A stretch of 42,563 nucleotides of DNA from Thermoanaerobaculia bacterium (lineage in GTDB: Bacteria; Acidobacteriota; Thermoanaerobaculia; Thermoanaerobaculales; Sulfomarinibacteraceae), in NCBI GenBank assembly GCA_027061805.1, contig JAMOWA010000068.1, positions 195,660-238,222 on the forward strand, in the 5' to 3' direction. Position numbers and translations under genes: made by a program. The notes under the pieces were generated by a model that did no database searches, was not told the DNA's origin, and saw nothing but the letters and a program-made list of their open reading frames with translations. This document shows, piece after piece, positions 33,123 to 38,966 of this stretch (within the stretch, counting starts at the first letter, position 1; every line of letters starts with the position of its first letter).

Positions 33123-34712
33123 TCAACGTTCCCGCGGCGGCTCCTCCAGTCCGAAGAGGCGAGGCGTGGCGACGAACCCCTCGCAGGGCTCAGGCACCCC
33201 GAGAAGCCCCCGTAGACCATCGCCCTCCATGATCACGGTCCAGTTTCCTGGAGCCAGTACGGCGCGGTAGCCACCGTCCACCGCAGGGCCCTCGGCCGCC
33301 ACCACCTCGGGAACTCCCTGCCGCAACAGTACCAGGCGCCCCGTGGGGACCGGTGATCCATCATCTCGCAAGGGATGGATCACCACCTCACACCGGGACC
33401 GGAGGGTCAGAGTCACCCAGTCTGTACCGGGGCCGATCTCCAGAGGATCCGCGAGATAGCCTTCTTTCTGTGCCATGAGGTTCCATGGCCCGGAACCCGG
33501 AAGGGTCAACTCGAATCGGCCCAAGGTGTCGGTCATGGCAAAGTTGTGGCGCGACCGGAATTCGAAGCCGGGTTCGAGGGCGGCCACCACGGCGTCCGCC
33601 ACGGGCAGCCCCCCGGAATCCACAACCACACCCTCGATGACCACGGCAGGCTCGAGAAGGATCACAAGGTCGCGTTTGCGGGAGCCGAGGTCCACCTCCC
33701 GGTGGACCGGGTTGTAACCTGCTCCGTCCACATCGATCCAGTAGTTTCCGGGTGGAAGTGCCACCTCCACCACCCCGTCCGAATCTGTGAGGGCCTCGGC
33801 CACCACAAGTTGCGCATCCTCCAGAGACCGTGCCACCCGAATGGACACGTCCTCCAGGGGCCTCTCATCACGCTTTTCCCGTACCACGACACCAAGGGTG
33901 CTTGGAGCATCAAGATCGACCTCATGGAACGGCTGCTCCGCGGAGAACTCCACCAGGGCAGCGGAGCCGTCCGGGGTGGACGCCCGGAGCCAGAGCACCT
34001 CATCATCGCCAGAGTCTGCAACCATTTCCACGAGATGTAGAGCACCCAGTTCCACCGTCTTTCCCAGTCGCAGGAGGTGTGTGCCGCCAAGGCGGTTCAT
34101 CAGACCCGTCACGGTGCCCACTTCGACAGTGCACTCAACAGCAATCCCACCGGTCCACGGGTCGTTGCACACCACCACCGAGGAGCGTCCGGGTTCGAGC
34201 TGCACGACGAGTGGCTCACGGGCAGGGTCACGGGCCATCGACACCGCCACCGGCACGGTATGTGGCCCCACCACCGCCAGGTCAAGGCGCGTCCCCGGCT
34301 CTACCCGGGGTCCAAATACCACAGTCCCATCGGCTGGTTCCAGCCGGAGAACACCATCCTCCACCCATGCCACCAGGGTGCCAGCCACCAGGGCTCCGGG
34401 CTCGAGATGAATCGGCACCGCCGTGGGGATCCACCGGGCGTCCCGCAGATCCACCTCCTCCCCCGCCACGAACTCCACCCTCCGCGCTTCGTATCCAGGG
34501 AGCGACAGTGTCAGCGCCACATCCACCCTGACCGGGCACAGGAGCTTCGCTCCATTCGTACCGCTCTCGAAGGTGCAACCCGGTGGCAATGTACCGGGAT
34601 CGTCCTCCAGCAGAAGAGGGCCATCTGCCACGAGGAGGGTTCCCACGGGCTCGCCACCGGAACCAGGGACTCCCAGAAGGAGAAGACCCGCGAGAAGCCA
34701 GGAGAAGATCAT
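33123..34712 (-). CDS. Secreted protein with carboxypeptidase-regulatory-like repeats
   Basis: 529 residues. A signal peptide (MIFSWLLAGLLLLGVPGSGG) is followed by an all-beta protein. Two clear carboxypeptidase-regulatory-like units are seen: DSDGVVEVALPPGNYWIDVDGAGY (given as the core LPPGNYWIDVDGAGY) and VVIEGVVVDSGGLPVADAVV with the partner TDTLGRFELTLPGSGPWNLM. Other stretches (TLSLPGYEARRVEF, LAPGNWTVIMEGDG) look like diverged copies. Cysteines occur in TFESGTNGAKLLCPV and SRCEVVI. It is the last gene of the ABC operon (start overlaps the ATPase stop as ATGA). A surface-exposed binding role is inferred. Base composition is less GC-biased than neighbours. Confidence 0.75.
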   Translation of the reverse strand: MIFSWLLAGLLLLGVPGSGGEPVGTLLVADGPLLLEDDPGTLPPGCTFESGTNGAKLLCPVRVDVALTLSLPGYEARRVEFVAGEEVDLRDARWIPTAVPIHLEPGALVAGTLVAWVEDGVLRLEPADGTVVFGPRVEPGTRLDLAVVGPHTVPVAVSMARDPAREPLVVQLEPGRSSVVVCNDPWTGGIAVECTVEVGTVTGLMNRLGGTHLLRLGKTVELGALHLVEMVADSGDDEVLWLRASTPDGSAALVEFSAEQPFHEVDLDAPSTLGVVVREKRDERPLEDVSIRVARSLEDAQLVVAEALTDSDGVVEVALPPGNYWIDVDGAGYNPVHREVDLGSRKRDLVILLEPAVVIEGVVVDSGGLPVADAVVAALEPGFEFRSRHNFAMTDTLGRFELTLPGSGPWNLMAQKEGYLADPLEIGPGTDWVTLTLRSRCEVVIHPLRDDGSPVPTGRLVLLRQGVPEVVAAEGPAVDGGYRAVLAPGNWTVIMEGDGLRGLLGVPEPCEGFVATPRLFGLEEPPRER

Positions 34713-35449
34713 GCGTCACGCTCTTCAGCCACGAGGCGCCTGTACAGGTCACGGAGCACATCGGGGCCACCCAGACCGGGACACGGACCGTCCCCTCGGA
34801 GCTCCTCGAGTGTCCCCGCCGCCCGGATACAGCCACCCACCAGGAAAAGGAAGCGGTCCGCAACGGACGGCAGGGCGAAGAGATCGTGGGAGGAGATCAG
34901 CACCGCGACGCCTTCCTCCGCCAACCTCCTCATCTGGGCGAAGAGCCGATCCACCGCGAGGGGATCGAGGCCCGCCCAGGGCTCGTCCAGAAGCACGAAC
35001 CGTGGAAGGCCCGCAAAGGCCAGCTCGAGGGTCAGGGTCAGCCTCTGGCCTCGCGACAGAGTGTGGGGATCCACGTCAAGCGGCCGTCCCAGGCGTTCCG
35101 AGAGGCGCTCCAGAAGGGCCTTTCGCGCTTCCTCTCGAAAGCCCCGCAGATGTGCCCTCAGAGTGGCCAGATCGTCCACCCGGCTCCCACGGGGAAAGGC
35201 AGGCTCGCTCGCAGTGAACACCACACGGCGTGCGAGACTCCAGCGGTCCGCCACTCTACAACCGTTCAGTGCGATTGTTCCGGAATCCGGCACCAGCAAA
35301 CCAGCCAGCGTTCGCATCAGCGTGGTCTTCCCCGCTCCGTTGGGACCCACGAGCGCCGTCACGCACCCGGAGGGAAGCTCCAGGTCCAGCGGTCCAAGGC
35401 CCCACCCCCCGGGGTATCGGAAGCAAAGACCCTGCACCTCGATTCCCAC
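34709..35449 (-). CDS. ABC transporter ATP-binding protein
   Basis: 246 residues. Walker A is GPNGAGKTT (35-43), the signature LSRGQRLTLTLELAF, Walker B FVLLDEPWAGLDPLAV and the H-loop LISSHDLF. The signature has Arg for the second position of LSGGQ. It resembles CcmA/YxlF-type export ATPases. GTG 35449 begins one base after the permease stop, with GGGAGG eight bases before it. It is expected to energise the adjacent single permease as a homodimer. Confidence 0.9.
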   Translation of the reverse strand: MGIEVQGLCFRYPGGWGLGPLDLELPSGCVTALVGPNGAGKTTLMRTLAGLLVPDSGTIALNGCRVADRWSLARRVVFTASEPAFPRGSRVDDLATLRAHLRGFREEARKALLERLSERLGRPLDVDPHTLSRGQRLTLTLELAFAGLPRFVLLDEPWAGLDPLAVDRLFAQMRRLAEEGVAVLISSHDLFALPSVADRFLFLVGGCIRAAGTLEELRGDGPCPGLGGPDVLRDLYRRLVAEERDA

Positions 35450-35450
35450 C

Positions 35451-36167
35451 TCAATCCCTCCCGCCCACGAAGATCGATCTCCGTTCCAATCCGGCCCGGA
35501 CTGCTGCCACCACGGCGAGGGCCACCAGCAGTCGGAGCCATTCCCCGGGGAAGACCGAGGATACGTGGGGCAGTTCGACCGCCACGAAGGGACTTGCCAG
35601 GTGGAGCGCAACAGTGATGAGAGCCCGCAGACCCTCTTCAGGAGCACCTCCCGTGAGCCACACGCTCCCACCCGTCACCCACCACAGCTCCACGAACCCA
35701 CCGGCGACCCCGACCGCCGCGAGGCTGCCGGAACCCGCCAGGAATCCCAATGAGGTCCCGATTGCTCCCCAGTACACCACCATGAACACAAGGTCCAGAA
35801 CCAGGCTACGATCCGGAGCACCGCCCGTCACGAGCACCGGGAGGCTGATCGCCAGAAGGCTCGCCAGGCCCGTTCCCACCGCCACCACGAGCCTGGCGTA
35901 CAAGAGCTGGGGCAGCGCCACACCACCGGAGACGATGGAATCCAGCGCTCCACGGTGCAGATCATCGGCCAATGCCCATCCTGCCAGATAGATTACCGGC
36001 AGGGCCCACAACCTCGCCGCAGTGGGGAGTTTCCCGGGCAAGTACACCATCTCCACGACCGCCCAGGCGGCCAGTGCGCCCCAGACCAGCCAGAGGAGTC
36101 GGCGGCGCAGAAGCCGGGAGAGTTCGAAGCCCGCCAGGTGGAAGAGAATCCGTCCCACCGTTCTCAC
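35451..36167 (-). CDS. ABC-2-type transporter permease
   Basis: 238 residues with about six hydrophobic helices (LLWLVWGALAAWAVVEMVYL, LWALPVIYLAGWALADDLH, LVVAVGTGLASLLAISLPVL, LVFMVVYWGAIGTSLGFLAG and others) and an amphipathic N-terminus. Membership of the ABC-2 exporter group is inferred from topology and from the ATPase gene directly after it. GTG 36167 overlaps the preceding stop as GTGA. The substrate is unknown; a peptide or polymer export role is suggested by the secreted neighbours. Confidence 0.75.
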   Translation of the reverse strand: MRTVGRILFHLAGFELSRLLRRRLLWLVWGALAAWAVVEMVYLPGKLPTAARLWALPVIYLAGWALADDLHRGALDSIVSGGVALPQLLYARLVVAVGTGLASLLAISLPVLVTGGAPDRSLVLDLVFMVVYWGAIGTSLGFLAGSGSLAAVGVAGGFVELWWVTGGSVWLTGGAPEEGLRALITVALHLASPFVAVELPHVSSVFPGEWLRLLVALAVVAAVRAGLERRSIFVGGRD

Positions 36168-37093
36168 CCCAGGTCGATCCGGTGGAGGCCGAGCCTCTCG
36201 TCCACCACGAAAAACTGCTCCGGGTCGTCACCTGCGAGGCGTGCCGCGCCCCGGGGAACCTCCATGTGGCGTTCGACAGCTCCCGAGAGGTCGAGTACCA
36301 GGAGACGGCCCCAGGCGTGGGCGCTCTCGGTCCCGGGGCGGCTCCCAACCAGGCAGATGATCCGCTTCCCCACCACGGCCAGGTCCCGGAGCGGGCAGGC
36401 CCGAAGGTCCTGCTCCCGGTCTTGCTGCCACTCTTCAATCTCGGGAAGAGTGATCCGTGACACCACCTCCCCCCCGCGGTCGAGAACTTCGAGCACTGGA
36501 CCCACGAATGGGCGGGAAACAACCGTGTGGTCGACATTTCCCGCATACACGACGGCGTTGCGGCGGACCAGGGACTCCATGTCACCGCTCCCGGGATCGA
36601 CCCGTCCACCCCACGGTCTGAATTCACCATTGACATCCAGCCACAACAGGGGCCCGCGTGCGCCGGGAGCGCTCCGCGCCAGCAGGAGCACCTCACCCCG
36701 GGTCCGGAGCACCTGGCAGCGAACCTCCAGCGTCCGGCGTTCCACCAGTCGGCCATCCGGCCCGTAGCGAATGAGCTCCCCTCCCAGCCGCGGCAGGAGC
36801 CAGACCCCCCCCCGTCGATCCGGAGCGATCCCCCATGGCCTGACCTCTTCCAGGATCCGGCGCCGGGCCCCCGTCCGCGCATCCAACATCCAGACGGCTC
36901 CACCATCCCTCTCCCCTGAACCGCTGGCCGGCCAGGTGGCCGCCATGACGATTTCCGGGCCCGTGAGAGCAGCGCTCCTGACAAAATACGATGAGGGACC
37001 AGGTTCCACCACCCGGACCCATGTCCCCGGACTCACGGCCCCGGAGACGGGGACGACCATCAAGAAGAGTCCCGCAGCGACGGCGCATCTCAT
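36164..37093 (-). CDS. Secreted beta-propeller-like protein of unknown function
   Basis: 309 residues. The signal peptide (MRCAVAAGLFLMVVPVSGAV) is followed by repeated four-strand-like units: GGAVWMLDARTGARRRIL, GIAPDRRGGVWLLPRLGGEL, GPVLEVLDRGGEVVSRI, WGRLLVLDLSGAVERHMEVP and FFVVDERLGLHRIDL. The pattern 'W/V-x-L-D-x-x-G' suggests an NHL/6-bladed-type propeller. It heads the translationally coupled run propeller-permease-ATPase-carboxypeptidase-regulatory-like protein and lies just downstream of the tiny secreted ORF. No catalytic motif is seen. Confidence 0.65.
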   Translation of the reverse strand: MRCAVAAGLFLMVVPVSGAVSPGTWVRVVEPGPSSYFVRSAALTGPEIVMAATWPASGSGERDGGAVWMLDARTGARRRILEEVRPWGIAPDRRGGVWLLPRLGGELIRYGPDGRLVERRTLEVRCQVLRTRGEVLLLARSAPGARGPLLWLDVNGEFRPWGGRVDPGSGDMESLVRRNAVVYAGNVDHTVVSRPFVGPVLEVLDRGGEVVSRITLPEIEEWQQDREQDLRACPLRDLAVVGKRIICLVGSRPGTESAHAWGRLLVLDLSGAVERHMEVPRGAARLAGDDPEQFFVVDERLGLHRIDLG

Positions 37094-37184
37094 GAACGAG
37101 ACCTCACAGATCCTGCCGGCGGCATGTCACCACCGGCTCACCAGGGTCAGAGACCAGGCATACTGGGCCAGGCACTCCATGTAC

Positions 37185-37277
37185 CTAGCCGCCGCCACAG
37201 TATGCTGCGGAAGCCGTGGTTACCGTGGTGCCAAGCAGCCCGAGAACCAAGACCAGGACCGCCACGAGTCGCCGCAT
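37185..37277 (-). CDS. Tiny secreted-peptide ORF, probably the 5' part of a frameshifted ~49-residue peptide
   Basis: 30 codons with a strong ribosome-binding site (GGAGGAAGGAA) directly before ATG 37277. It reads as a full signal peptide (MRRLVAVLVLVLGLLG, then TTVTTASAA) followed by YCGGG and a TAG stop. The stop follows a GGCGGCGGC run. Shifting by one base inside that run opens a 20-codon extension (ARYMECLAQYAWSLTLVSRW, ending at 37127) with codon use like the neighbours. The whole gene may therefore encode a 49-residue secreted peptide with two Cys, broken by a frameshift, a sequencing error or recoding. It precedes the propeller/ABC exporter genes on the same strand. No family is recognised. 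Confidence 0.45.
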   Translation of the reverse strand: MRRLVAVLVLVLGLLGTTVTTASAAYCGGG

Positions 37278-37439: not shown

Positions 37440-38966
37440 ATGTCCGACCCAAGCCGCACATCCCGTTTCCTCGACAGGCTGTTTCCGTGGGCAGCAGGAA
37501 TTCTCTTGCTCTTTCTCTATGCTCCCGTACTGACGATGGGGCCTGTGGCCGAGGATTTCCAATGGGCCTACAAGGGCTGGAGCACGCTCCGTCATCCCGC
37601 GAGCTTCCTTCAGCCCTTTCACCAGCACCTCAGGCCCGCAGGGCGGCTGTTCTTCCTGATCTCTGCGAACCTCTTCGGTGACCGATGGTATCTGTACCGT
37701 CTTGTCACTCTTGCTTCGATGGCCTGCCTCGCACTTCTTGCGTACCACGTCCTCCGAAAGACAGTGAAACTTCGACCTGGTCTCGCAGCGGCGGGCATTC
37801 TGGTCTGGCTGGCATCTCCCTTCTCGGACGAGGTTCTCTTCGTGACGAATCAGGTCAAGCAGATCCTCTTCGCCACTGGAATTCTCCTGGTTCTCCAGGC
37901 ACGCCGATCCCAGAGCCGTATGGCCCCGGCATTGCTGGTTGCAGGAACAGCCCTGGCCTTCGGCAGCAAGGAGGAGGCCGCCGTGCTCCCCGCCCTCCTC
38001 CTGCTCCAGGATCTTCTGCTGTTTCGCCTCCCTTTCCGGCACGCAGCACGCCACCTGATTCCGTGGGTGACGATCAGTCTTCTCTACCTGGCGCTTTACA
38101 ACATGCTCGTCCATTTCGAAGCGAGATGGTTCTATTCGGAACCGCTGACGGCTCTACCGCATCTTGCCACCACATGGATGGCATTCTGGCATCTTCACCC
38201 CCCGGTCCTGGGACAATTCACAATGGTTCTGCGGAAGACCTGGCCCCTTGTTCTCGGTGCTCTCGTCCTCACAGCAGTGGCCACCGTTCCGGCATGGCGC
38301 AAGGACGACCGGACGGCGGCCTTTGGTTTCCTGGCTGCGATTGTCCTCCTGTCACCGACGCTCCCCGCCAACATCCATACCTCACGGTACACCTTTCTTC
38401 CCTTCCTCTTCTTCCTCAGCGGCGTCCTGGCAGGAGTGCGGACGCTGGCCCGATGGCACCTCCCCCGTCTCGCCACCCTTGCACTGGGCCTGACCCTTCT
38501 CACCGTGATGGCCAACGATTCGATCATCGTTCGAGGCGATCGGATGGACTGGGATCGCTATGCCACCCTGACGGCCCGGCTCCGCCGGGAATCCCGTCCG
38601 GTCATCTCGGCCCTGAGGGATGGCTCCCACGTCGCGGCCATCCGGGGACGCGATGGCAGCGCATTGAAGGAGCTCCTCCACCATCCCAGGGGTGTGCCGA
38701 AAATCTACTTCCCAAGGCCAGACGATCCCTATGGGGTCACATCGCTCTCTGCCCTCGTGAGCTGGGAGCTCCGTCACGAGGGCATTGCGGCACCCCGGCT
38801 GGTTGAGCCCATCGCCATCCCGGCAGTGGTGTACCTTGTCCACGACACGGGAGGCTTCCGCAAGGTCCCGCCGCTTCCCGGAGCCCTCTCCAGACCTTTC
38901 GGTGCCGGGGTCGTCATCCTCCACCCGGTCCCGGGAGACTCCTTCAACCCCGACGTCTTCCCCTGA
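37440..38966 (+). CDS. Polytopic membrane protein, probable GT-C type glycosyltransferase
   Basis: 508 residues with about ten hydrophobic helices. The first periplasmic loop (GPVAEDFQWAYKGWSTLRHP) has the acidic pair expected for the divalent-metal site of GT-C lipid-phosphosugar transferases. Later loops contain FGDRWYLYRLVTLAS and FGSKEEAAVLPAL. A soluble C-terminal part (about 375-508) follows. ATG 37440 follows a -10 box by seven bases. Its composition is visibly less GC-rich than the atp and nuo operons and similar to the first part of the gene at 1515. It is the only plus-strand gene between 28.9 and 42.6 kb. Substrate unknown. Confidence 0.7.
   Translation: MSDPSRTSRFLDRLFPWAAGILLLFLYAPVLTMGPVAEDFQWAYKGWSTLRHPASFLQPFHQHLRPAGRLFFLISANLFGDRWYLYRLVTLASMACLALLAYHVLRKTVKLRPGLAAAGILVWLASPFSDEVLFVTNQVKQILFATGILLVLQARRSQSRMAPALLVAGTALAFGSKEEAAVLPALLLLQDLLLFRLPFRHAARHLIPWVTISLLYLALYNMLVHFEARWFYSEPLTALPHLATTWMAFWHLHPPVLGQFTMVLRKTWPLVLGALVLTAVATVPAWRKDDRTAAFGFLAAIVLLSPTLPANIHTSRYTFLPFLFFLSGVLAGVRTLARWHLPRLATLALGLTLLTVMANDSIIVRGDRMDWDRYATLTARLRRESRPVISALRDGSHVAAIRGRDGSALKELLHHPRGVPKIYFPRPDDPYGVTSLSALVSWELRHEGIAAPRLVEPIAIPAVVYLVHDTGGFRKVPPLPGALSRPFGAGVVILHPVPGDSFNPDVFP

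Follow-up and report, generated by a model that had tools for sequence, protein, structure and literature searches.

A five-gene operon in which a small, cysteine-rich secreted protein and further secreted proteins accompany a single membrane pump was found in the window, the whole stretch of 42,563 nucleotides of a Thermoanaerobaculia bacterium that was analyzed, and we consider this operon to be real. It occupies positions 37277-33123 of the minus strand and consists of five ORFs in the same direction, namely a micro-ORF (37185..37277), a 309-aa secreted protein predicted to form a beta-propeller (36164..37093), a 238-aa membrane protein presumed to be an ABC-2-type permease (35451..36167), an ABC ATPase (34709..35449), and a 529-aa secreted protein with CarboxypepD_reg beta-sandwich domains (33123..34712). 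The tight coupling claimed in the original prediction was confirmed on this strand. The permease GTG start overlaps the propeller stop (GTGA), the ATPase GTG lies one base after the permease stop (TGA-G-GTG), and the ATPase and the CarboxypepD_reg protein gene share ATGA. Signal-like N termini of the Sec type were noted on three kinds of product, the miniprotein, the propeller (where the signal is hydrophobic), and the beta-sandwich protein. Neither promoter and terminator patterns above chance at the operon nor a marked RNA structure across the micro-ORF (z -1.5) were detected. The last gene ends 46 bases ahead of atpZ on the same strand (33123-33076), and operon transcription may run on into the atp genes.

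We used the permease to search 149 genomes of the class and found one clear relative, G022, which belongs to another family of the same order and carries the complete operon in identical order (locus L007). Its identity to the window was 27% for the propeller, 32% for the permease, 49% for the ATPase, and 33% for the CarboxypepD_reg protein. When the G022 miniprotein was used as the query, a weak match was obtained in G147 that has identical cysteine spacing and heads a complete five-gene operon (L200). G138 was recovered with a two-row propeller profile (E 4.3e-8); in this genome, two miniprotein genes are followed by the propeller, permease, and ATPase genes (L201) and a fifth gene was not recognized. 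The G147 and G138 operons are diverged copies. In the final profile search of 147 class genomes, the four operon genomes gave strong matches and only weak partial matches were recorded elsewhere. Most of the weak miniprotein matches look like chance, the G147 match being one that proved real, and weak propeller matches in G064, G145, and other genomes were set aside as they had no miniprotein and no matching ABC pair. When the fifth protein and the permease were used as queries against 396 genomes of the phylum, no further member was returned; these searches were not exhaustive because few candidates were scored per genome and two-row profiles miss diverged copies.

The operon is therefore recorded sporadically, in four genomes from four families, with the fifth gene present in three. 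The recurrence of its gene order in G022, G147, and G138 exceeds chance, and the case for homology of the whole operon is carried by the ATPase, the propeller, and the identical order. The proposal that the secreted genes and the ABC pair form one cassette was upheld by this shared order. A propeller and permease pair with a small signal-peptide ORF at the head of the operon, which had been suggested as the pattern to look for in other genomes, was present in every relative found, and we encountered neither an ABC pair separated from the secreted genes nor a relative without the small ORF.

The prediction of an ABC-2 exporter held for its ATPase half. The window ATPase matches PF00005 (E 8.9e-22) with intact Walker motifs (GPNGAGKTT, DEPW, SSH); the ABC-2 class of the permease is presumed from context, and the protein matched no Pfam or NCBIfam family. 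The permease model was poor (pLDDT 47) and all-helical, with about 6-7 hydrophobic segments, and at the sequence level the permease subgroups showed hardly any link (hhalign probability 4.7%). The four operon ATPases are 33-49% identical and have in common LSRG together with DEPW, a combination that was not seen in other ATPases among the loci in hand and that can be used as a signature for finding further operon members. No peptidase domain was found in the ATPase, its PDB matches included NosF (a bacterial single-ATPase match), and the defense library returned generic ATPase matches only. An ATPase scan of genome contigs with the pattern GPNGAGKT was swamped by generic ATPases, and none of its 80 loci contained other operon genes. 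The high-scoring ATPases of L018 and L029 are double-ATPase, energy-coupling-type proteins and not relatives.

The assignment of the 309-aa protein as a beta-propeller, originally made from sequence, is supported by modeling. It has no Pfam or NCBIfam family match in the window copy, and a two-sequence AlphaFold model was all-beta with moderate confidence (pLDDT 62, pTM 0.62). This model gave 352 PDB matches at E<=0.001, of which the top-ranked were mostly beta-propellers (NHL, WD40, BamB), but with TM-scores of only 0.3-0.5, and we treat the fold as putative. An hhalign comparison of the propeller subgroups covered about 209 columns (E 4.5e-5, probability 69%). The carboxypeptidase-regulatory-like nature of the last protein was verified by PF13620 (E 9.6e-18, 64.8 bits, against a gathering score of 32.3). 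The G022 fifth protein also exceeded this score (52.1 bits) and that of G147 fell just below it (31.8 bits), and the fifth proteins of the subgroups were linked only through their common CarboxypepD_reg domain. CarboxypepD_reg matches across the phylum were mostly long proteins aligned over the domain only and were rejected.

The miniproteins of the relatives are 70-79 aa long (73 aa in G022), a size that annotation easily misses, and their mature forms of 41-42 aa possess four mirror-symmetrically placed cysteines. With the first mature cysteine as position 1, these lie at 1,12,24,35 in G022 and G147 and 1,8,28,35 in both G138 copies. All have the same outer span, with the inner pair shifted by four residues per arm (about one helical turn), and both pairs sum to 36; the chance of a symmetric inner pair under random placement is 0.03. 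Tyr5 and a Glu-Arg ahead of the second helix are also common to the miniproteins, and these features, together with C1...C35 and the mirror-symmetric inner pair, recur in place of the YC motif that had been suggested, which is not conserved. A leave-out test gave no significant link between the two miniprotein subgroups from sequence alone. Mirror-symmetric cysteine pairs with a constant outer span are what would result if the miniprotein folded as an antiparallel alpha-hairpin closed by C1-C4 and C2-C3 disulfides, and their spacing hints at disulfides with a structural role rather than at a metal site. Twin-CxnC alpha-hairpin proteins, such as CHCH proteins and plant alpha-hairpinins, likewise have two symmetric cysteine pairs on two predicted helices, but the miniprotein spacing is CX10C or CX6C and no sequence match to such a family was found. 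The DUF3551 proteins are also small, have signal peptides, and are rich in cysteine and tyrosine; however, the match of PF12071 to the G022 miniprotein was weak (E 0.0052, 17.3 bits, below the gathering cut-off of 26.5 bits) and the other three miniproteins were unmatched. Locus L041 (G134:C53) encodes a different small protein that looks secreted and has cysteine pairs of the CC and NxC types (TCCQRCQANINTCYNNCGG); it matches the miniprotein weakly and has no adjoining ABC operon.

In the window, the micro-ORF encodes 30 aa, MRRLVAVLVLVLGLLGTTVTTASAAYCGGG, with AGGAGG six nt ahead of its ATG, and ends after AYCGGG, only six residues past the likely signal-cleavage site. The codon statistics change to the next (+1) frame near 37200. 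When a profile of the relatives' mature miniproteins was run against the six frames of the window, the top match was at this +1 continuation, RYMECLAQYAWSLTLVSR, with 8.2 bits versus 3.9 for the next, an E of 0.19 that is suggestive rather than proof. The probable continuation (37127..37198, minus strand) reads RYMECLAQYAWSLTLVSRW and then stops, ahead of the second helix. Because both the coding signal and the homology go on in another frame, this sequence evidence indicates that the micro-ORF is probably the 5' part of a frame-disrupted miniprotein gene, and damage to the gene or a mistake in the assembly is more probable than a short peptide that is complete. The tiny ORF at the head of the operon was thus correctly recognized by its signal peptide, its strong ribosome-binding site, and a position matching that in L007, L200, and L201, but not as a complete peptide. 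The other four genes of the operon are open. That the micro-ORF is intact and a longer product arises by a programmed +1 shift at the stop codon, where the signal-peptide and continuation frames meet, is very improbable, as the shifted product would still end before the second helix with only two cysteines and the relatives' genes use a single frame. After the TGA at 37129-37127, the continuation frame (37129-37070, minus strand) reads HAAGRICEVSFMRC, in which a CX6C resembles the second arm of the G138 miniproteins; this stretch runs into the propeller start codon and may be a remnant or chance.

For the function of the operon, the reading to which we lean, at somewhat under an even chance, is that of a sporadic cell-envelope transport operon in which a periplasm-facing ABC pair works with Sec-exported partners and the miniprotein is a partner or effector and not cargo. 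The secreted proteins would assemble at the periplasmic face of the ABC pair, where the propeller and the beta-sandwich protein may serve as docking or receiving components. The miniprotein, a putative alpha-hairpin with four cysteines in two disulfides, would be released by Sec as a small dedicated partner or effector; as it has its own Sec signal, it is probably not cargo. The ABC pair would then spend ATP on moving a small cargo other than protein (metal, lipid, or metabolite) to or from the secreted partners, in a manner that may resemble the propeller-associated PedA1A2BC and NosDFY. With this set of parts, the operon defines a small recurring envelope module that can be tested. It is also possible, although with a chance clearly below even, that these genes represent a new family of Sec-secreted, disulfide-clamped alpha-hairpin miniproteins with a dedicated ABC transporter and propeller and beta-sandwich partners, in an undescribed envelope or conflict system. 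A narrow literature search found no published description of the operon, and because the search was narrow this is no proof of novelty.

The genomic location bears on the main rival, a peptide-conflict locus in which the miniprotein is bacteriocin-like or signaling, the ABC pair and secreted partners protect the producer, and the window genome lost the peptide and kept the protection. In 23 relatives including G022, the atp genes come immediately after nuoN, which is the arrangement of most relatives; the window genome has the operon and a divergent PMT_2-like gene at this place. Small toxin-antitoxin-type genes were found upstream of atpZ in four relatives, with Phd/PIN in L159 (G004), PIN in L164 (G012), ParE-like/ParD-like in L165 (G016), and ParD-like in L166 (G006). 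The nuoN-atpZ junction appears to be a site at which accessory genes have been inserted in members of this order. The GC3 of the operon is 0.71-0.77, versus 0.89-0.97 in the flanking purA, atp, and nuo genes, and the G022 operon sits elsewhere; gain by transfer fits these observations of atypical GC3, insertion, and differing location. No repeats marking a mobile element were detected in the operon flanks. The PMT_2-like membrane glycosyltransferase gene within the same insertion (37441-38966, plus strand) has a GC3 of 0.67 and a family match just below the cut-off (E 2.3e-5).

This junction with its toxin-antitoxin-type genes, the atypical GC3, the sporadic presence in four families, and a miniprotein gene that is doubled in G138 and disrupted in the window are all consistent with a peptide conflict. 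Against it, the net charge of the mature miniproteins is close to neutral (-2 to +1) and they diverge at about the rate of the propeller and permease, and neither they nor the secreted proteins gave an immunity-suggesting match in the Pfam, NCBIfam, or defense libraries. The immunity pumps that are known do not typically come with propeller and beta-sandwich partners. We consider this rival unlikely, with enough in its favor to be kept in view.

Export by the ABC pair, either of a secreted peptide or of an envelope polymer, had been offered in the original prediction; in this reading the other secreted proteins would mature or anchor the exported product. In its favor, every operon starts with a miniprotein gene that lies near the ABC pair. 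However, all miniproteins start with a Sec-like signal in place of a leader for an ABC exporter and therefore have no need of the ABC pair for export, the ATPase is without a peptidase domain, and no polymer-synthesis gene is common to the loci, so that neither form of export found positive support and we regard this explanation as improbable. An equally doubtful proposal is that the operon handles a metal or cofactor in the periplasm in the strict sense, for instance as a remote member of the PedA1A2BC/NosDFY class dedicated to one particular enzyme. It is favored by an overall parts list like that of PedA1A2BC and by NosF among the ATPase matches, and is disfavored by the cysteine spacing, which would point to structural disulfides, and by the PQQ-associated models. 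The ATPase scored 87.9 bits against PQQ_ABC_ATP (TIGR03864), a generic ATPase level below the cut-off of 302.25, and no PQQ-system NCBIfam model matched the propeller, permease, or small protein of the window, G022, G147, or G138 at E<=1.

The envelope transport reading that we prefer can be set beside two known systems. NosDFY, which acts in nitrous oxide reductase maturation, combines an ATPase and a membrane protein with a secreted all-beta partner, as the operon does. It differs in that NosD folds as a beta-helix rather than a propeller, no nos genes accompany the operon, and the resemblance of the ATPase to NosF is generic. In PedA1A2BC, a permease and an ATPase cooperate with a beta-propeller and one more protein, both periplasmic, in lanthanide-dependent growth and lanthanide/PQQ-dependent alcohol oxidation (PMC6839425), and the operon has the same kinds of parts. 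Unlike PedA1A2BC, however, it has a four-cysteine miniprotein and a CarboxypepD_reg protein where that system has a binding protein, and no PQQ genes were noted next to the operon loci. Although it falls outside the PQQ-associated families, the operon is nearest in organization to PedA1A2BC.
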